Part shown: piece by piece, positions 20,056 through 38,995 of the stretch
How the letters are laid out: each line of letters starts with the position of its first letter
Position numbering within the stretch: the first letter of the stretch is position 1
Assembly: GCA_944384025.1 (NCBI GenBank)
Contig: CALWRS010000012.1
Coordinates: 1 to 61,225, forward strand
Direction of reading: 5' to 3'
Length of the DNA stretch: 61,225 nucleotides
Source: an uncultured Lachnospiraceae bacterium
GTDB taxonomy: Bacteria; Bacillota; Clostridia; Lachnospirales; Lachnospiraceae
Notes under the pieces: generated by a model
Database searches by the model: none
What the model saw: only the letters and a program-made list of their open reading frames with translations
Told to the model about the DNA's origin: nothing
Program-made: the position numbers and the translations under genes

Positions 20056-21420
20056 ATGGCAAAAACAAAAGAAGCAATTTTATTTGAAGAGGCGCCGGTT
20101 GGCCGTGCGGTACTCTCTTTAGTTATCCCAACGATTCTCAGCCAGCTTATTACGGTTGCCTACAACATGGCGGATACGTTTTTTATCGGGCAAATTGGCG
20201 ACGCGAATCAGGTGGCGGCCGTTTCTCTTTGTATGCCGTTATTTATATTTCTTACGGGGCTTGCTAACTTGCTTGGCATTGGCGGCTCAAGCCTTATGTC
20301 TCGGTGCTTGGGTGCGAATAATCGAAAAAAGGCGAAGAAAGCGGCGGCTTTTAGTATTTGGACGGCGATACTGGTCTCGCTCGTTTATGGCGCTGCCATT
20401 TTTATGGCGCGCACGAAGCTGCTGCCTGTTATCGGCGCAAATGCGGGAACGCTTGATTACTGCTCGGATTATATTTTCTGGACAATCGCAATAGGGGCGG
20501 TTCCCACGGTACTTAGTCAGGGGCTTGCCCACCTGGTTCGGGCGGAGGGGCATTCGGCGCAGGCAAGTTTTGGCGTTGCACTGGGCGGTGTGCTGAATAT
20601 GCTGCTCGACCCGATTTTTATTTTTCCTTTGGGAATGGAGGTTGCCGGTGCGGCCGTTGCGACGATGCTTTCCAATGTGGCGGCTACGCTTTACTTTGTC
20701 GTTCTTCTTGTCCGCAGACGAGACACAACGAACATTTCCTTCCATCCGAAATATTATACATGGGGAGAAAAAATCCCGAAAGAAGTGCTTTTGGTCGGAC
20801 TTCCAAGCTGTCTGATGAACCTGATGGGCGTTTTGTCGAACGTTACTTTAAACAGGCTGATGGCTGGTTATTCGAACGCCGCTATAGCGGGTATCGGCGT
20901 GGCGAAAAAAATTGATATGCTGCTGTTTGCGATTGCAACCGGAATGTCGCAGGGCGTATTGCCGCTTGTAGGGTACAACTATTCCGCCCGCAATTACAAG
21001 CGGATGCGGGCAGCGCTTAAAGTGGATTTTTTGCTCAGCCTTGTTGTATCGCTGCTGGGTATGCTGTTTTTGCTTACGTGCGCCGGGCCGATTGTACGGG
21101 TGTTTATTAACGACGAGCAGACGGTTCACTACGGGCAAATGTTTCAGCGCATCATTTGTCTTACCGGCCCGTGTATTAGCATAACGATGCTTACGATTAC
21201 CGTATTTCAGTCCGTTGGGAAAAAAGTCCAGCCTGCAATTTTGTCACTGATGCGAAAGGGAGGACTGGACATTCCGCTTATGCTCCTTTTTAACTCGTTT
21301 GCAGGGGTGAAGGGAATTGTGTGGGCAGTGCCAATCGCTGACTTTTGCGCAATGCTTGTAGCGGTTATTTTATTTGTCCCGTTTTGGCGGCAGCTGCAGA
21401 AAAAAGAAACCAGATGTTGA
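20056..21420 (+). CDS. MATE family efflux transporter
   Basis: This 454-residue membrane protein has about 12 hydrophobic segments. The two homologous halves typical of MATE transporters are visible, for example LVIPTILSQLITVAYNMADT near the start and LVGLPSCLMNLMGVLSNVTL at mid-protein. It probably exports drugs or metabolites by antiport. The start has GGAAGGGG upstream. The stop lies 17 bases before the histidine-kinase start, so export may be controlled together with that two-component system. The substrate cannot be read from the sequence. Confidence 0.9.
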   Translation: MAKTKEAILFEEAPVGRAVLSLVIPTILSQLITVAYNMADTFFIGQIGDANQVAAVSLCMPLFIFLTGLANLLGIGGSSLMSRCLGANNRKKAKKAAAFSIWTAILVSLVYGAAIFMARTKLLPVIGANAGTLDYCSDYIFWTIAIGAVPTVLSQGLAHLVRAEGHSAQASFGVALGGVLNMLLDPIFIFPLGMEVAGAAVATMLSNVAATLYFVVLLVRRRDTTNISFHPKYYTWGEKIPKEVLLVGLPSCLMNLMGVLSNVTLNRLMAGYSNAAIAGIGVAKKIDMLLFAIATGMSQGVLPLVGYNYSARNYKRMRAALKVDFLLSLVVSLLGMLFLLTCAGPIVRVFINDEQTVHYGQMFQRIICLTGPCISITMLTITVFQSVGKKVQPAILSLMRKGGLDIPLMLLFNSFAGVKGIVWAVPIADFCAMLVAVILFVPFWRQLQKKETRC

Positions 21421-21437
21421 TTAAAGGAGGCATGGCT

Positions 21438-22730
21438 TTGAAGCGATTCCTAAAAGGTGCGTATGGAGAGAATGTTGAGCGGCCGATTGATTTTCGTGTC
21501 CGGCTGTTCCACATTTTGGCTTTCGGCGGAATTACAATCAGTTTTTTCACGGTATTAATCAGCCTTGTGACGCATATGTGGATGACGGCGGCGCTTGCCG
21601 CAAGCTTAATCGCGTTTTCCGCGGGGCTTGTCATTTTTACGTGGAAAACCGGAAAGTACCAAGTGGCGTACTTTTTTACGGTTGTGGTTATTTTTATGAT
21701 TGTCCTGCCGATGATGTTTTTTAGCTCCGGCGGGCATCGCAGCGGAATGCCTTCGATTTTCCTCCTTGCCGTGTTGTTTACGGTGCTTATGATTAAGGGA
21801 AAAAGGGCGCTTTTGCTTTCCGTTTTTGAGATTGTTGAGTATTCTTTTGTGTGCGTATATGCGTTTCATCATCCGGAGCTTGTGTCGCATTACGAAACGG
21901 AAGCGCAGATTTTGACGGATATTATTTTCGCATTTACGTGCGTAAGTATTGTTTGCGGCATTGTGACTTTCTTTTACTTGCGGGAGTATGATTATCAGCG
22001 CGAACTTCTGCGGGAGCAAAACGAAAAACTAAAGCGGTACGATGCGTCGCGTTCCGCTTTTTTGACGACCGTCTCCCACGAGGTAAACAATCCGCTCAAC
22101 GCGATTAACCTTCACGCGCACGACACGCTGGAGCTTATGGAGGAAGATCCGCCGGATGCGGAACTGATTCAAAACAACCAGCGCGTGATTGAGCAGATGG
22201 TTGCGCGGATTGACCGGATTTTGACCGATTTAAAAGACACGGTTGCCATCGAACAGGGGCGGTTGGCGCTAAATCTTGCGCCCATGCGGCTTAGCAAGCT
22301 TTTAAGAGACGTTGCGGGAACGTATTTTCGGCGGGAGGATTCCGCCGGAAACGAGCTGATTCTGGAAGTGGACGATACTTTGCCGCCGATTGACGCAGAT
22401 TATGCGCGAATTGTACAGGTAGTCGCCAATCTTTTATCCAACGCCATGCAGCATACAAAGGAAGGGAAGATTAAAATTTCTTTGTATATGCGCACGGGAG
22501 AGCAGATTGTCGTTATTTCTGACAACGGCGAGGGAATGAAGAAAGAAATCAGAGAACAGGTGTTTAAGGGCTACATTTCTTCCGATAAAGAGTATTGGCG
22601 TCATGGCATCGGTCTTTATGTGTCGCATCAGATTGTGGAGGCGCACGGAGGAAGAATTTGGATTGACAGCAAGCTAGGAGAAGGCACGACCGTAACGTTT
22701 ACGCTGCCTGACAGGAGGACAACGCTATGA
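21438..22730 (+). CDS. Membrane sensor histidine kinase
   Basis: This protein of about 430 residues has roughly six membrane segments in the first 200 residues and a short coiled linker. A HisKA domain follows with phosphoacceptor His in TTVSHEVNNPLNAIN, then an HATPase domain with QVVANLLSNAMQHT (N box), ISDNGEGM (G1) and RHGIGLYVSH (G2). AAAGGAGG lies seven bases before a TTG at 21438, which is chosen. An ATG at 21432 is only one base from it. The gene overlaps its response regulator by four bases. Confidence 0.9.
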   Translation: MKRFLKGAYGENVERPIDFRVRLFHILAFGGITISFFTVLISLVTHMWMTAALAASLIAFSAGLVIFTWKTGKYQVAYFFTVVVIFMIVLPMMFFSSGGHRSGMPSIFLLAVLFTVLMIKGKRALLLSVFEIVEYSFVCVYAFHHPELVSHYETEAQILTDIIFAFTCVSIVCGIVTFFYLREYDYQRELLREQNEKLKRYDASRSAFLTTVSHEVNNPLNAINLHAHDTLELMEEDPPDAELIQNNQRVIEQMVARIDRILTDLKDTVAIEQGRLALNLAPMRLSKLLRDVAGTYFRREDSAGNELILEVDDTLPPIDADYARIVQVVANLLSNAMQHTKEGKIKISLYMRTGEQIVVISDNGEGMKKEIREQVFKGYISSDKEYWRHGIGLYVSHQIVEAHGGRIWIDSKLGEGTTVTFTLPDRRTTL

Positions 22731-23419
22731 AAGAGCAAAAACCTATCGTACTGGTTGTGGAGGACGAGGCGGATGTGCTTCGCATTAACGCCAGAATGCT
22801 TACGCGCCACGGCTATACCGTATATACGGCGGAAAACTGCAGGCAGGCGTACGAGCGCTTAGAAAATTCGGCGCCCGATCTTTTGATTTTGGACATTATG
22901 CTGCCGGATGGAAGCGGCTACGATGTATGCAGGAAATTCCGGAGCACAAGCGACAACCCGGTTATCTTTCTAAGCGGGAAGAGGGATACGAGCGACCGAA
23001 TCGAGGGATTTACAAACGGCGGCGACTACTATTTGACAAAGCCGTACGACCCCGGCGAGCTGCTGGCTGTAGCCGACAGACTGATACATCGCCATTTTAA
23101 GGAAAGAGAACGCCTTACGACGATTGAAAAAGGGACGCTTGTTTTGGACATTTCCAAATCCAGAGCAATTGTAAGAGGGGCAGACGCCGGGCTTACCGGA
23201 AAGGAGTTTGCACTGTTGCTTTTGTTGGTGCAAAACGAAGGCAAGGAAATATCTCCGCACGAGCTGTACGAAAAGGTTTGGGGAGTTCCGTCTGTGGAGG
23301 ATATCCGTACGGTGCGATTTCATATTAAAAATCTCCGCAGGAAGATCCATGCGGAAAATGCGGACGACTACGATATTGTCTCCGTATATGGGAAAGGCTA
23401 CCTTTTTACAACGCTCTAA
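22727..23419 (+). CDS. OmpR-family response regulator
   Basis: This 230-residue regulator has an intact receiver. VVEDEAD forms the acidic pocket, the phosphoacceptor Asp is in LLILDIMLPDGSG, a Ser is in VIFLSGK, and the Lys is in YLTKPYD. The C-terminal winged helix has LTGKEFALLLLLVQNEG and TVRFHIKNLRRKIH. It forms a complete two-component system with the overlapping kinase. The likely targets are nearby genes such as the MATE exporter or the envelope cluster, but no binding site was identified. Confidence 0.93.
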   Translation: MKEQKPIVLVVEDEADVLRINARMLTRHGYTVYTAENCRQAYERLENSAPDLLILDIMLPDGSGYDVCRKFRSTSDNPVIFLSGKRDTSDRIEGFTNGGDYYLTKPYDPGELLAVADRLIHRHFKERERLTTIEKGTLVLDISKSRAIVRGADAGLTGKEFALLLLLVQNEGKEISPHELYEKVWGVPSVEDIRTVRFHIKNLRRKIHAENADDYDIVSVYGKGYLFTTL

Positions 23420-23569: not shown

Positions 23570-23926
23570 TTGTCAAGAGTATTGTTTGTCGGCACAGACC
23601 GCACAATGACCGAAATGGTAGGCAGGTTACTGAAACGAAACGGGTTTGACGTCCGTTGTGTAATTGGCAGGGAAGAGGCTTTTTCGGCAATTGGTGCGCA
23701 AAGCATCGCCGTTGTTATCGCAGATCTGGAAGGCAGCGTCACGGAAGGAATTCGTTTTTGTCAAGAAGCAAAGCAGCGGTCAACAGCGACCAAGCTTTTG
23801 TTAATTTCAGGAAACGAAAAAGACGAGGAATCGCTTCTGCTTGGGGGCGCGGACGATTGGCTGAAAAAACCGTACAGTATGCGGATTTTGTACGCGCGGG
23901 TGCAGGCTTTGCTGCGGCAGGCGTAG
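23570..23926 (+). CDS. Stand-alone response-regulator receiver protein
   Basis: This 118-residue single-domain receiver has no output domain. The phosphoacceptor is probably the Asp in VVIADLEGS, with Ser in LLISGNE and Lys in DDWLKKPYS. The N-terminal acidic pocket reads LFVGTDRT instead of the usual two adjacent acidic residues, so metal binding may be altered. The start is TTG after GGAGGAGG. It may accept phosphate from the neighbouring kinase or act as a phosphate sink. Confidence 0.8.
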   Translation: MSRVLFVGTDRTMTEMVGRLLKRNGFDVRCVIGREEAFSAIGAQSIAVVIADLEGSVTEGIRFCQEAKQRSTATKLLLISGNEKDEESLLLGGADDWLKKPYSMRILYARVQALLRQA

Positions 23927-35793: not shown

Positions 35794-35822
35794 TGGAAAT
35801 GTTTGGAACGCTGTGCTATAAT
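35794..35822 (+). promoter_or_regulatory. Promoter for pyruvate kinase
   Basis: TGGAAA (35794-35799) is followed after 17 bases by TATAAT (35817-35822). The -10 is perfect and the -35 is moderate. The leader is about 38 bases long. Confidence 0.6.
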
Positions 35823-35866: not shown

Positions 35867-37285
35867 ATGAGAAAAACAAAAATCATCGGAACTCTTGGGC
35901 CTGCCTGTTCGGAAGAATCCATTTTGCGGGAAATGATTCTTGCGGGAATGAACGTCGCGAGAATGAACTTTTCGCACAATACGCATAAGGAGCATCGGCA
36001 AAGGATGGAACTTGTGCGCAAGCTTCGCCGGGAAATGGGCGTGCCGCTTGCCGTTATGCTTGATACGAAAGGGCCGGAATATCGAATCGGCGATTTTGTG
36101 AACGGGAAAATCCATCTGGAGGAAGGAGACTGCTTCACGTTTACAACGCAGAAAGTAGAAGGAGATTCGTCGCGGGTTTCCGTTTCGTATCCGCACCTTG
36201 CCGAGGAGATTTCCGTAGGTGATCAAATCCTTCTAAACAACGGACTTTTGGAGTTTTTGGTTGATGAAGTGACGGAAACGGACATCCGCTGCCACGTAAC
36301 GGCAGGCGGCGAGCTGTCGAATCATAAGAGCATGAGCTTTCCGGGCAAAGTGCTGCACCAGGATTATTTAAGCGAACAGGACAAGGCGGACATTCTTTTT
36401 GGAATTCAGGAGGATGTTGATTTTATTGCCTGCTCGTTTGTTTCCTGCAAGCAGGACTTGCTGGATGTAAAAAATTATATAGAGGAACAGGGCGGCGGCG
36501 ACATCGAGCTGATTGCGAAGATTGAAAACCGCGCCGGAATTAAAAATATAGAAGAAATTTGCGAGGTCTGCAGCGGCATTATGATTGCCAGAGGCGACCT
36601 GGGCGTAGAAATTCCTTACGAAGAGCTGCCGGCCATCCAAAAACAGCTGATTACGAAGTGCCGCATGCTTGGCAAGCGCGTCATTACGGCTACGGAGATG
36701 CTAGAGTCTATGGTGTACAACCCGCGGCCGACCCGCGCGGAAGCTTCGGACGTAGCGAACGCAGTTTACGACGGGACAAGCGCGGTTATGCTTTCGGGAG
36801 AAACCGCTGCAGGACATTATCCGGTACAGGCCATTCGCGCGATGGCGCGCATTACCGAGGCGGCGGAGCAGGGCATTGCCTACCAGAAAAACTTCCACGA
36901 TATGAATTTCCGGATTCACAACAAGGTCGATGCGCTCTCGCATGCGATTTGCGGCTTGTCGTTTGACTTAAACGCAAAGGCCATTGCGGTTTGCACGCTG
37001 ACCGGTTCGACGGCGCGGATGGTTTCGCGGTTCCGTTCTCCGGTAAACCTGATGGCAATGACGACGAACGAAAAAACGTATCGGCGGCTGGCGCTTTCCT
37101 GGGGCGTAGTTCCTGTCATGAACGAGGTGTTCACCTCGCTTGAGGTGCTTTTGTACGAAGCAAAGAAAAAGGCGACGGAAATCTTTGATTTAAAGCCCGG
37201 CGACTCGATTATTGTTACCGGGGGAATGACCAACGGTGAGTCAGGAAATACGAATCTGATAAAGGTGGAGACGGTAACGCGCTGA
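35867..37285 (+). CDS. pyk: Pyruvate kinase
   Basis: This glycolytic enzyme converts phosphoenolpyruvate and ADP to pyruvate and ATP. The 472-residue protein has MNVARMNFSHNTHKEH, LDTKGPEYRIGDF, the active-site region IELIAKIENRAGIKNIEEI with the catalytic Lys, and MIARGDLGVEIP. It also has TATEMLESM and SGETAAGHYPVQA. It lacks the extra C-terminal PEP-utiliser-like domain of Bacillus pyruvate kinase. GGAGG precedes the ATG. Confidence 0.97.
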   Translation: MRKTKIIGTLGPACSEESILREMILAGMNVARMNFSHNTHKEHRQRMELVRKLRREMGVPLAVMLDTKGPEYRIGDFVNGKIHLEEGDCFTFTTQKVEGDSSRVSVSYPHLAEEISVGDQILLNNGLLEFLVDEVTETDIRCHVTAGGELSNHKSMSFPGKVLHQDYLSEQDKADILFGIQEDVDFIACSFVSCKQDLLDVKNYIEEQGGGDIELIAKIENRAGIKNIEEICEVCSGIMIARGDLGVEIPYEELPAIQKQLITKCRMLGKRVITATEMLESMVYNPRPTRAEASDVANAVYDGTSAVMLSGETAAGHYPVQAIRAMARITEAAEQGIAYQKNFHDMNFRIHNKVDALSHAICGLSFDLNAKAIAVCTLTGSTARMVSRFRSPVNLMAMTTNEKTYRRLALSWGVVPVMNEVFTSLEVLLYEAKKKATEIFDLKPGDSIIVTGGMTNGESGNTNLIKVETVTR

Positions 37286-37315: not shown

Positions 37316-38233
37316 TTGAAGAAGGTGAAAAGAAATAATTGCCCCCGGATCCTTTTGTGGCGCGATGCAGGCATTGCCGTGCTGATTATGGCATTTTGCA
37401 CGGGAATCTGCGCGGGTCTGGGGAAGATATGGTGGGAAAACCCCCTTATTTTGCTGCTTTACGGAGTTGCTGTATTTCTTACGGCGTACTGTACGGAAGG
37501 CTTTCGGTTTGGAACTGCCGCAGCGCTACTTAGCATGGCGCTTTTAAGAGTTCCCTTTATGGATACGCTTTGGCCGACGCTTAGCGGGCTGGCGGTAGAT
37601 TTGTTGATAGGGCTTTGCCTATTTCTTCTTTCTTTTTTGACCGGCTGTTTGAAGGAAAACAGAAAACAGTGGGCGCAGCAGAGGGAACAGGCAAAGCTGT
37701 TTCATGTACTGTATGAGGAATTTTATGCGGCGACTAAGCGCGGGCTTTATGGCAGCGCTGCGCTGATAAAAGAGGAAAACGAATGGATGCTGCGCCTTTT
37801 GGATGAGGCGCAGCCGCTTATTGTAGAAAGGCTGCATACGCAAATTGCGATGCAGGCGGAAGCGGTTGAGGAGGTTGTCTCGGAAGCAGTCCGCCGGGTG
37901 CGCAGGCACTACCCGGGCATTGCGCTTAGGGCAATGGTTCCCCAAAAGCTGCTCTTCGTATCCATGAACGCTGTTTTGCTGGAACAGGCGCTGCAGCTTC
38001 TTTTGGAGAGTACGGCATTGTCGGGGGATTTTGCCGCACAGCTCTGTCTTCGTGTAACGGCAAAAGAGCGGATGGTGGAATTTTATATTACCGGAAATCG
38101 CAGGGAAATTTCGCAGGAACGATTTGCGTTTTGTAACCGAATTATACAGGCGCACGGGGGGACGCTGCAAACAACGCGCGAACCGGAAGGCAGTGTTACG
38201 TATTTCTTTTTGCTGCCTGCTGCCGGTAGCTAA
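37316..38233 (+). CDS. Degenerate KdpD-like membrane sensor (pseudokinase)
   Basis: This 305-residue protein has about four closely spaced membrane segments (residues 14-110) resembling the DUF4118 module of KdpD. A helical region follows, then a C-terminal GHKL-like fold ending in RIIQAHGGTLQTTREPEGSV. The usual HisKA histidine is missing. The N box reads LLLESTAL, the G1 Asp-x-Gly motif is replaced by ITGNRRE, and no G2 glycine loop is visible. It is therefore unlikely to bind ATP or phosphorylate. The start is TTG after GAGG. It lies 30 bases after pyk and 48 bases before a regulator that also lacks its phosphoacceptor. Confidence 0.75.
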   Translation: MKKVKRNNCPRILLWRDAGIAVLIMAFCTGICAGLGKIWWENPLILLLYGVAVFLTAYCTEGFRFGTAAALLSMALLRVPFMDTLWPTLSGLAVDLLIGLCLFLLSFLTGCLKENRKQWAQQREQAKLFHVLYEEFYAATKRGLYGSAALIKEENEWMLRLLDEAQPLIVERLHTQIAMQAEAVEEVVSEAVRRVRRHYPGIALRAMVPQKLLFVSMNAVLLEQALQLLLESTALSGDFAAQLCLRVTAKERMVEFYITGNRREISQERFAFCNRIIQAHGGTLQTTREPEGSVTYFFLLPAAGS

Positions 38234-38281
38234 CGAAGCGGGAAATCGGAAGATCTTCGTTTACCGGGAGTGGAACAGATA

Positions 38282-38995
38282 ATGAAGTTGCGAATTCTTG
38301 TGATTGAAGACGATCTTTCTCTCGCGACTCTCCTTCAGACGGTTTTAGAGGCAAATGGTTATCAGGCAGTTACGTCGCAAAGCGGGCGGCTGGGCTATGC
38401 GCTTGTCGCATCGTATTCCCCGGACGCGATTATATTAAATCTGGGACTGCCGGATGTGGATGGAATGCAGATAATTTACGAACTGAGAAAATGGTCGGAA
38501 ATACCGATTGTTGTAACAGCGGGTAGGAGGTCGGAGCAAGAGGTTGTTGAAGCGCTTGATGCAGGCGCAGACGATTATCTCGCAAAACCTTTTGGAATGG
38601 CAGAATTGATGGCAAGGCTTCGGGCGGCAATTCGCCACGCGTCTTATAGGATGCGGTCGCAAAGTACGCCGCAGAGCGGAAATATAAATATCCGCGGGCT
38701 GTCGATTGACACGGAGCGTCATATTGTTATGGTTGACGGAAACGACGTGCATTTGACGCAGAACGAATTTCGAATTGTTATGCTGCTTGCAAGGCATGCG
38801 GGGCACGTATTGACGCACGAGTTTATGAAGCAGGAGCTTTGGGGGCCAATGGCAGCGGACAGCAACCAAATCCTGCGCGTACATATGGCAAATATCCGAA
38901 GAAAGTTAGAGAAAAATCCTGCGGAGCCGGAGTATATTCTAACGGAAGTCGGCATTGGGTATTACATGGCAGATGGCAGAGAAAGACCGTGCTAG
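38282..38995 (+). CDS. KdpE-like response regulator lacking the phosphoacceptor Asp
   Basis: This 237-residue OmpR-class regulator most resembles KdpE (LRKWSEIPIVVTAGRRSEQE and DDYLAKPFGMAELMARL). The acidic pocket IEDD, Thr79 and Lys102 are kept. The phosphorylation site reads IILNLGLPDVDG: Asn53 (codon AAT at 38438-38440) replaces Asp. The winged helix is intact, with LTQNEFRIVMLLARHAG and ILRVHMANIRRKLEKNP. It probably binds DNA without phosphorylation. The stop overlaps the convergent dacA stop. The start is ATG 38282; a GTG at 38270 is possible. Confidence 0.9.
   Translation: MKLRILVIEDDLSLATLLQTVLEANGYQAVTSQSGRLGYALVASYSPDAIILNLGLPDVDGMQIIYELRKWSEIPIVVTAGRRSEQEVVEALDAGADDYLAKPFGMAELMARLRAAIRHASYRMRSQSTPQSGNINIRGLSIDTERHIVMVDGNDVHLTQNEFRIVMLLARHAGHVLTHEFMKQELWGPMAADSNQILRVHMANIRRKLEKNPAEPEYILTEVGIGYYMADGRERPC

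Follow-up and report, generated by a model that had tools for sequence, protein, structure and literature searches.

The stretch of DNA analysed here (the window, 61,225 nucleotides) carries on its forward strand a run of three genes, consisting of a pyruvate kinase gene (35867–37285; Pfam PK 398 bits, PK_C 110 bits), a sensor-like gene of the short KdpD type (37316–38233, 305 aa, TTG start) and a gene for a KdpE-like regulator of the OmpR family (38282–38995, 237 aa, ATG start). The mechanical open reading frame of the regulator begins at GTG 38270, and its residues are numbered here from ATG 38282. The genes are separated by 30 bases (pyruvate kinase to sensor) and 48 bases (sensor to regulator) and, judging only by this spacing, the sensor and regulator are probably co-transcribed with pyruvate kinase. 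A promoter-like site upstream of the pyruvate kinase gene (35794–35822, forward strand, TGGAAA-17-TATAAT with a TG before the second hexamer) is no more than suggestive as a candidate promoter for the whole run, as sites of this kind are about as frequent in the region as expected by chance (5 versus 3.5 ± 1.9 in shuffles). Downstream of the regulator lie convergent genes for a D-Ala-D-Ala carboxypeptidase (Peptidase_S11) and a class II aldolase domain protein. The window holds another sensor-regulator pair (21345–22730 and 22727–23419), followed by a lone receiver-only ORF (23570–23926, 118 aa, Response_reg 41.9 bits) which has T-D as its first acidic pair and no Pro/Gly loop of the usual kind behind its Asp.

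The genome assembly to which the window belongs (a 1.92-Mb draft in 19 contigs, 96.7% complete; other members of the genus examined measure 1.7–2.9 Mb) gave no match to kdpA (PF03814) over its whole length in a search that matched 5 of 14 controls. The absence of kdpFABC near the pair, noticed in the preliminary description, is thereby borne out and extends to the entire assembly, and because kdpA is absent from the genome we ruled out regulation of KdpFABC by the pair. A TrkH-type protein is encoded on another contig of the same genome.

Lesions in the sensor and the regulator

Within the sensor the DUF4118 membrane domain (Pfam, E = 3e-10) is the sole domain over cut-off; the HATPase_c tail scores 13.2 bits, below its cut-off of 26.4, and HisKA has no Pfam match at E ≤ 1. 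The KdpD model PRK10490 yields 30.8 bits against a cut-off of 1123, and from the parts that define KdpD (USP/KdpD N-terminal domain, DUF4118, HisKA and HATPase_c) the window sensor has DUF4118 alone. Aligned with intact relatives it reads YEEFYAAT where they have SHDIRTPL, so that the phospho-acceptor His is gone, LLLEST where they have NLLENS, with loss of the N-box Asn, and TGNRREI where they have EDNGGGI, with loss of the G1 Asp, while the G2 columns are gaps and the F box and ATP lid are missing. None of the four features of a functional HisKA histidine kinase (acceptor His, N-box Asn, G1 Asp and G2 Gly loop) is present. The Thr of the HDxRT motif, which has a phosphatase role, is replaced by Ala, a lesion beyond those described earlier, and therefore phosphatase action by the sensor is not expected either; the DHp region carries further deletions. 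As a histidine kinase homologue that lacks the catalytic and acceptor residues and keeps its frame, a homology that rests on DUF4118 and the alignment to intact relatives, the protein belongs with the pseudo-histidine kinases. By its sequence it is a membrane pseudokinase, with a DUF4118 membrane domain and eroded DHp and CA domains, and a part in signalling is possible for this predicted pseudokinase.

The regulator carries Response_reg (85 bits) and Trans_reg_C (73.8 bits, cut-off 26.2), both over their Pfam cut-offs, and its closest solved chain by sequence is the E. coli-type KdpE 4kny (E = 1.5e-54). We call it KdpE-like because KdpE (PRK10529) is its best NCBIfam model, yet the score of 199.5 bits is under the curated cut-off of 325; it falls outside KdpE proper both on this score and on the kdpFABC target. 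At the phosphoacceptor position the codon AAT (38438–38440, forward strand) encodes Asn53, within the motif IILNLGLPDVDG. Four of the 27 receiver columns that are invariant across 41 intact regulators are broken (D53N, S80A, A81G and K88V), and none of the 16 invariant DNA-binding columns is; at a 95% conservation cut the window regulator deviates in 5 of 42 columns of the receiver and in 2 of 28 of the DNA-binding domain, and that of its nearest relative, G017, in 2 and 1. This column count and the tree discussed below leave out 7 of 50 regulator rows (L054, L061, L062 and L080 as duplicates, L018 and L019 as partial, and L037 as re-entered from pieces). The replacement of the switch Ser80 by Ala and of the conserved alpha-4 Lys88 by Val adds to the lesions known before, while E9 and D10, which make up the first acidic pair, are retained along with Lys102. 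Thr79 (VTAG) lies one position ahead of the lost switch Ser and might substitute for it via a register shift. A PF00072 domain without the acceptor Asp places the regulator among the PsR/ALR proteins, and the retention of 16 of 16 invariant Trans_reg_C columns places it among the OmpR/PhoB winged-helix proteins. Its linker contains no Cys at residues 120–139 of the translation, and a RitR-type redox switch is ruled out because the linker Cys is absent. Ten receiver loci are listed elsewhere in the window's genome, of which eight (L026–L033) keep the Asp; of the other two, L034 does not show the motif and L035 displays that of its neighbour.

The preliminary description had proposed an Asn53 (AAT) instead of Asp, a KdpE-like receiver with an intact winged helix, and a KdpD-like sensor without the HisKA His, N-box Asn, G1 and G2. 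All of these are confirmed, the first when numbered from ATG 38282, the second by the two Pfam domains and the unbroken DNA-binding columns, and the third by the DUF4118 match and the alignment.

Related pairs within and outside the genus

Regulator matches at E ≤ 1e-45 occur in 3 of 22 genus genomes (the window's own, G017 and G015) and sensor matches at E ≤ 0.001 in 2 of 22 (the window's own and G017), with 99 genomes searched overall. G017 (Lachnospiraceae MAG S26M_St_51, L045) has the same order of pyruvate kinase, sensor and regulator as the window, with amino-acid identities of 85%, 67% (regulator) and about 42–44% (sensor). Its sensor (333 aa) has SEELYAPL and ELLKSA in place of the H-box and N-box and scores under the cut-offs for HisKA (18.7 bits) and HATPase_c (18.3 bits). 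From G1 to AHxG the window and G017 sensors each span 27 residues versus 37–64 in the 47 others aligned (52 in L003, which puts the shortening in the dead sensors at ∼25 residues). The G017 regulator keeps the acceptor Asp, with one broken invariant column in the receiver (A81G) and none in the DNA-binding domain. In G015 the acceptor codon is GAG, encoding Glu, and one receiver column (D53E) and one DNA-binding column (E222K) are broken; the gene record contains unknown bases and a frame change inside the gene. No sensor adjoins the G015 regulator, an unrelated ORF upstream ending 217 bases before it, and no sensor match was found in this genome, which is 80% complete. In a tree whose bootstrap is not fully settled, the three regulators of the genus group together as a clade (support 99/97), and the branch lengths are 0.9 for the window regulator and 0 for G017. 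In G017 (L038:5662–7521) the interval between the regulator and the convergent genes encodes an ammonium transporter with a fused P-II domain, which is absent there in the window.

The genus is thus a natural series, with a dead sensor and Asp in G017, a dead sensor and Asn in the window, and Glu without an adjacent sensor in G015. Because G017 pairs a dead kinase with an Asp regulator, the phosphotransfer losses were staged, the kinase first and the receiver later. The idea of a matched, joint loss in both partners, as first put forward, is not supported by this comparison, given the dead kinase and Asp regulator of G017 and the Glu without adjacent sensor of G015. Conservation across species, proposed at the outset as a check, holds for the missing kinase boxes, which are common to G017, and fails for the Asn (Asp in G017, Glu in G015). 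Relatives with an Asp and a complete kinase, which had been named as the finding that would tell against it, do exist in other genera (49 of 49 loci), and G017 goes half way, with Asp and a dead kinase.

All 49 sensor-regulator loci read from other genera (45 distinct; L003–L019, L021, L022, L046 and L052–L080, the last from a search matching 158 of 397 family genomes) keep the His, the N-box Asn, the G1 Asp, the G2 loop and the regulator Asp. L021 and L022, intact with Asp, stand outside the main alignment, and L023 belongs to L017 and L024 to L013, each as an additional fragment. Gene contexts differ among five intact loci, as judged by eye and from provisional gene identities, and no conserved partner genes emerge. 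An Asn-type acceptor motif was found in 1 of 397 family genomes, namely the window's own, and a Glu-type motif in no regulator of the 397, the sole match being a membrane protein; these searches cover two genomes of the genus (G000 and G002, without G015 and G017) and detect only acceptor changes within an otherwise conserved motif. A profile built from the two dead sensors gave 573 bits for the window's own gene and 155.6 bits for the next match in the 397 family genomes. All four kinase boxes are present in eight of its best loci (L085–L087, L089–L092 and L095), and among the listed profile matches no second pair with the same lesions was found in the 12 loci read besides the window's own. 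A profile scan of contigs with the regulator alignment returned 7 loci, the only close ones being L045 (that of G017) and L046.

A group of the profile matches (L096–L099) is short or stop-bearing, and in L099 the boxes are present. L097:366–1813 (G290), a second KdpD/KdpE-like copy, has a sensor missing the His-bearing DHp segment but with the ATPase boxes retained, beside a regulator with its Asp present and its DNA-binding domain truncated, and is an independent pair that seems to be decaying. In L096:352–1368 (G122, at a contig end) the sensor frame continues beyond the G1 box as the C-terminal portion of a KdpE-like regulator, the product either of a fusion by deletion or of faulty assembly, and in L098:867–1862 (G381) a stop after the N-box splits the sensor gene.

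Selection, decay and the course of events

Between the window and G017 pN/pS is 0.13 for pyruvate kinase, 0.29 for the regulator and 0.55 for the sensor and, within the regulator, 0.24 for the receiver, 0.23 for the DNA-binding domain and 0.72 for the linker; these values come from one comparison of two dead-sensor species, at a dS of at least 1.6, which is saturated. Sensor differences by codon position number 142/100/173, and the DHp region is the least conserved of the sensor's three parts (37% identity, with deletions). In neutral simulations at 0.8 changes per site, using a simple model that ignores indels, 0 of 2000 sensor frames remained stop-free, whichever sequence was taken as the start, as did 1 or 0 of 2000 regulator frames; about 11 stops were predicted in the sensor, and the actual sensor has none. 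At 0.05 changes per site 539 of 2000 (G017 start) and 421 of 2000 (window start) sensor frames were stop-free. Selection therefore acted on the dead sensor over much of the period since the two lineages parted, and the stop-free frames together with the pN/pS of both genes argue against long neutral decay. Among intact pairs with a regulator identity of 60–75% (n = 175) the mean sensor identity is 52%, and nine are as low as the 42% between the window and G017; the evolution of the sensor is faster than usual but within the range of intact loci. A recent release of constraint on the window branch could also have occurred.

On balance we find it probable that the pair lost phosphotransfer stepwise within one Lachnospiraceae genus, and that the regulator is now of a phosphorylation-independent, pseudo-receiver type beside an ancestral pseudokinase. 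In a first step, before the split from G017 and shown by the changes common to both sensors, the sensor was turned into a membrane pseudokinase: gone were the His, the N-box Asn, the G1 Asp and the HDxRT Thr, along with ∼25 residues across the F box and ATP lid. The regulator was then no longer tied to its own kinase. In a second step, shown by the receiver losses on the window branch, Asn replaced the acceptor Asp, Ala the switch Ser and Val the alpha-4 Lys, with the invariant DNA-binding columns all kept. Since the receiver residues are lost and the DNA-binding columns retained, the regulator should act as a pseudo-receiver regulator, presumably as a phosphorylation-independent OmpR-type transcription factor. 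Its activity would be set mainly by its amount, through its probable transcription together with pyruvate kinase, with possible modulation through binding of the membrane pseudokinase. Such binding is the most interesting option for the role of the pseudokinase, with G015 as an example of the regulator kept where no sensor adjoins it.

Decay in progress, that is, a pair of little or no function whose receiver changes reflect relaxed drift and whose frames are not yet broken, is possible, if rather unlikely. The small genome (1.92 Mb), the long window branch, the presence of the regulator in only 3 of 22 genus genomes with the G015 copy interrupted, and the broken versions in other family genomes (the truncated regulator of L097 and the split sensor of L098) are consistent with it, but the loss of 0 of 16 invariant DNA-binding columns, the low pN/pS of the receiver and the roughly 11 sensor stops that neutral drift since the G017 split predicts speak against it.

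We regard as unlikely a direct contact in which the pseudokinase still responds to turgor, ions or the state of the membrane by binding or releasing the regulator, with no phosphate step. Regulators normally dock on the DHp region of a sensor, which is the least conserved part of this one, and the G015 regulator has neither an adjacent sensor nor a sensor match elsewhere in its 80%-complete genome. On the other side, two species keep both genes adjacent and in frame after kinase loss, the sensor combines its pN/pS of 0.55 with zero stops, and signalling-active pseudokinases are known, as reported in the cited part of PMC9491836 for a ChrS variant and DivL. The staged pattern fits equally well a need for phosphorylation that slackened once the kinase was lost and a purpose-built direct-contact system. 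A contact-only membrane-to-DNA system, with a selected pseudokinase and a selected pseudo-receiver side by side and G017 as an intermediate step, is likewise unlikely.

It is very unlikely that the pseudokinase has another kinase as its target, through a heterodimer for instance, with the Asn regulator as a separate constitutive neighbour: histidine kinase heterodimers usually form between close paralogues, and the genome has no paralogous sensor, the sensor's own gene being the sole match at E ≤ 0.001. A kinase His motif does occur in a frame neighbouring 5 regulator loci of the window's genome, and ChrS/HrrS and DivL offer a precedent, although in the cited part of that source the truncated ChrS itself is without a significant heterodimer signal (PMC9491836). 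An error of sequencing or assembly at the AAT codon is highly improbable. GAT to AAT is a single-base change and the assembly a draft in 19 contigs, but S80A and K88V changed independently in the same domain (K88V requires two or more base substitutions), and a dead sensor occurs in two species. The part of the earlier interpretation that is supported is that neither a sequencing slip nor a very recent break of the sensor lies behind the locus: the dead kinase is common to G017 at 44% sensor identity, both frames are open, and the invariant-column changes of the regulator are confined to the receiver, with the DNA-binding domain untouched.

Comparison with known systems

Because the genus offers a natural series of intermediate states, and intact pairs exist elsewhere, the order of events in the proposed stepwise loss is testable with orthologues, as is the question of what keeps a dead kinase under selection. 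Short KdpD (DUF4118)/KdpE-like pairs of Lachnospiraceae, such as that of Candidatus Dorea gallistercoris (L046), share the sensor-regulator order and the DUF4118 domain with the window, and their regulators, about 50% identical to the window's, fall in the same regulator tree; the 49 loci have the kinase boxes and the Asp, whereas the window has no boxes and an Asn.

The regulator resembles RitR, as presented in the cited parts of PMC4395418 and PMC5965902, in its receiver and DNA-binding domain, its acceptor Asn (Asn53), its retained pocket Lys and its replaced switch Ser/Thr. RitR is, however, described as a redox sensor via the linker Cys128 (PMC4395418, PMC5965902), while the window regulator is without Cys in residues 120–139, and RitR has Lys10, where the window regulator keeps the second acidic residue and adjoins a sensor gene. 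ChxR, HP1043, BldM/WhiI and CmrT (PsR/ALR) likewise have a receiver without phosphotransfer residues and a retained output; in the cited part of PMC12632262 none is described with a dead adjacent sensor, CmrT lying in an otherwise normal-looking system, whereas the window sensor is also dead. The ChrS CA-frameshift variant and DivL are, like the window sensor, catalytically dead, and are able to influence signalling, but HrrS phosphorylates the regulator ChrA in the former case (PMC9491836, in part) and the window's regulator has no Asp to accept phosphate.

Each half, pseudokinase and pseudo-receiver, is of a known kind, and for their adjacent combination we found no report in the titles and abstract openings searched, a scope outside which most subscription journals lie. 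Receivers without Asp make up 2.0% of PF00072 and HisKA domains without His 0.9% in the data set of PMC12632262, part of which terms the control mechanisms of bacterial pseudo-receivers a mystery. Finally, in the part of the ALR survey cited here, Glu accounts for 26% of acceptor replacements and Asn, the second commonest, for 16% (PMC4395418), and both of these are present in the window's genus.
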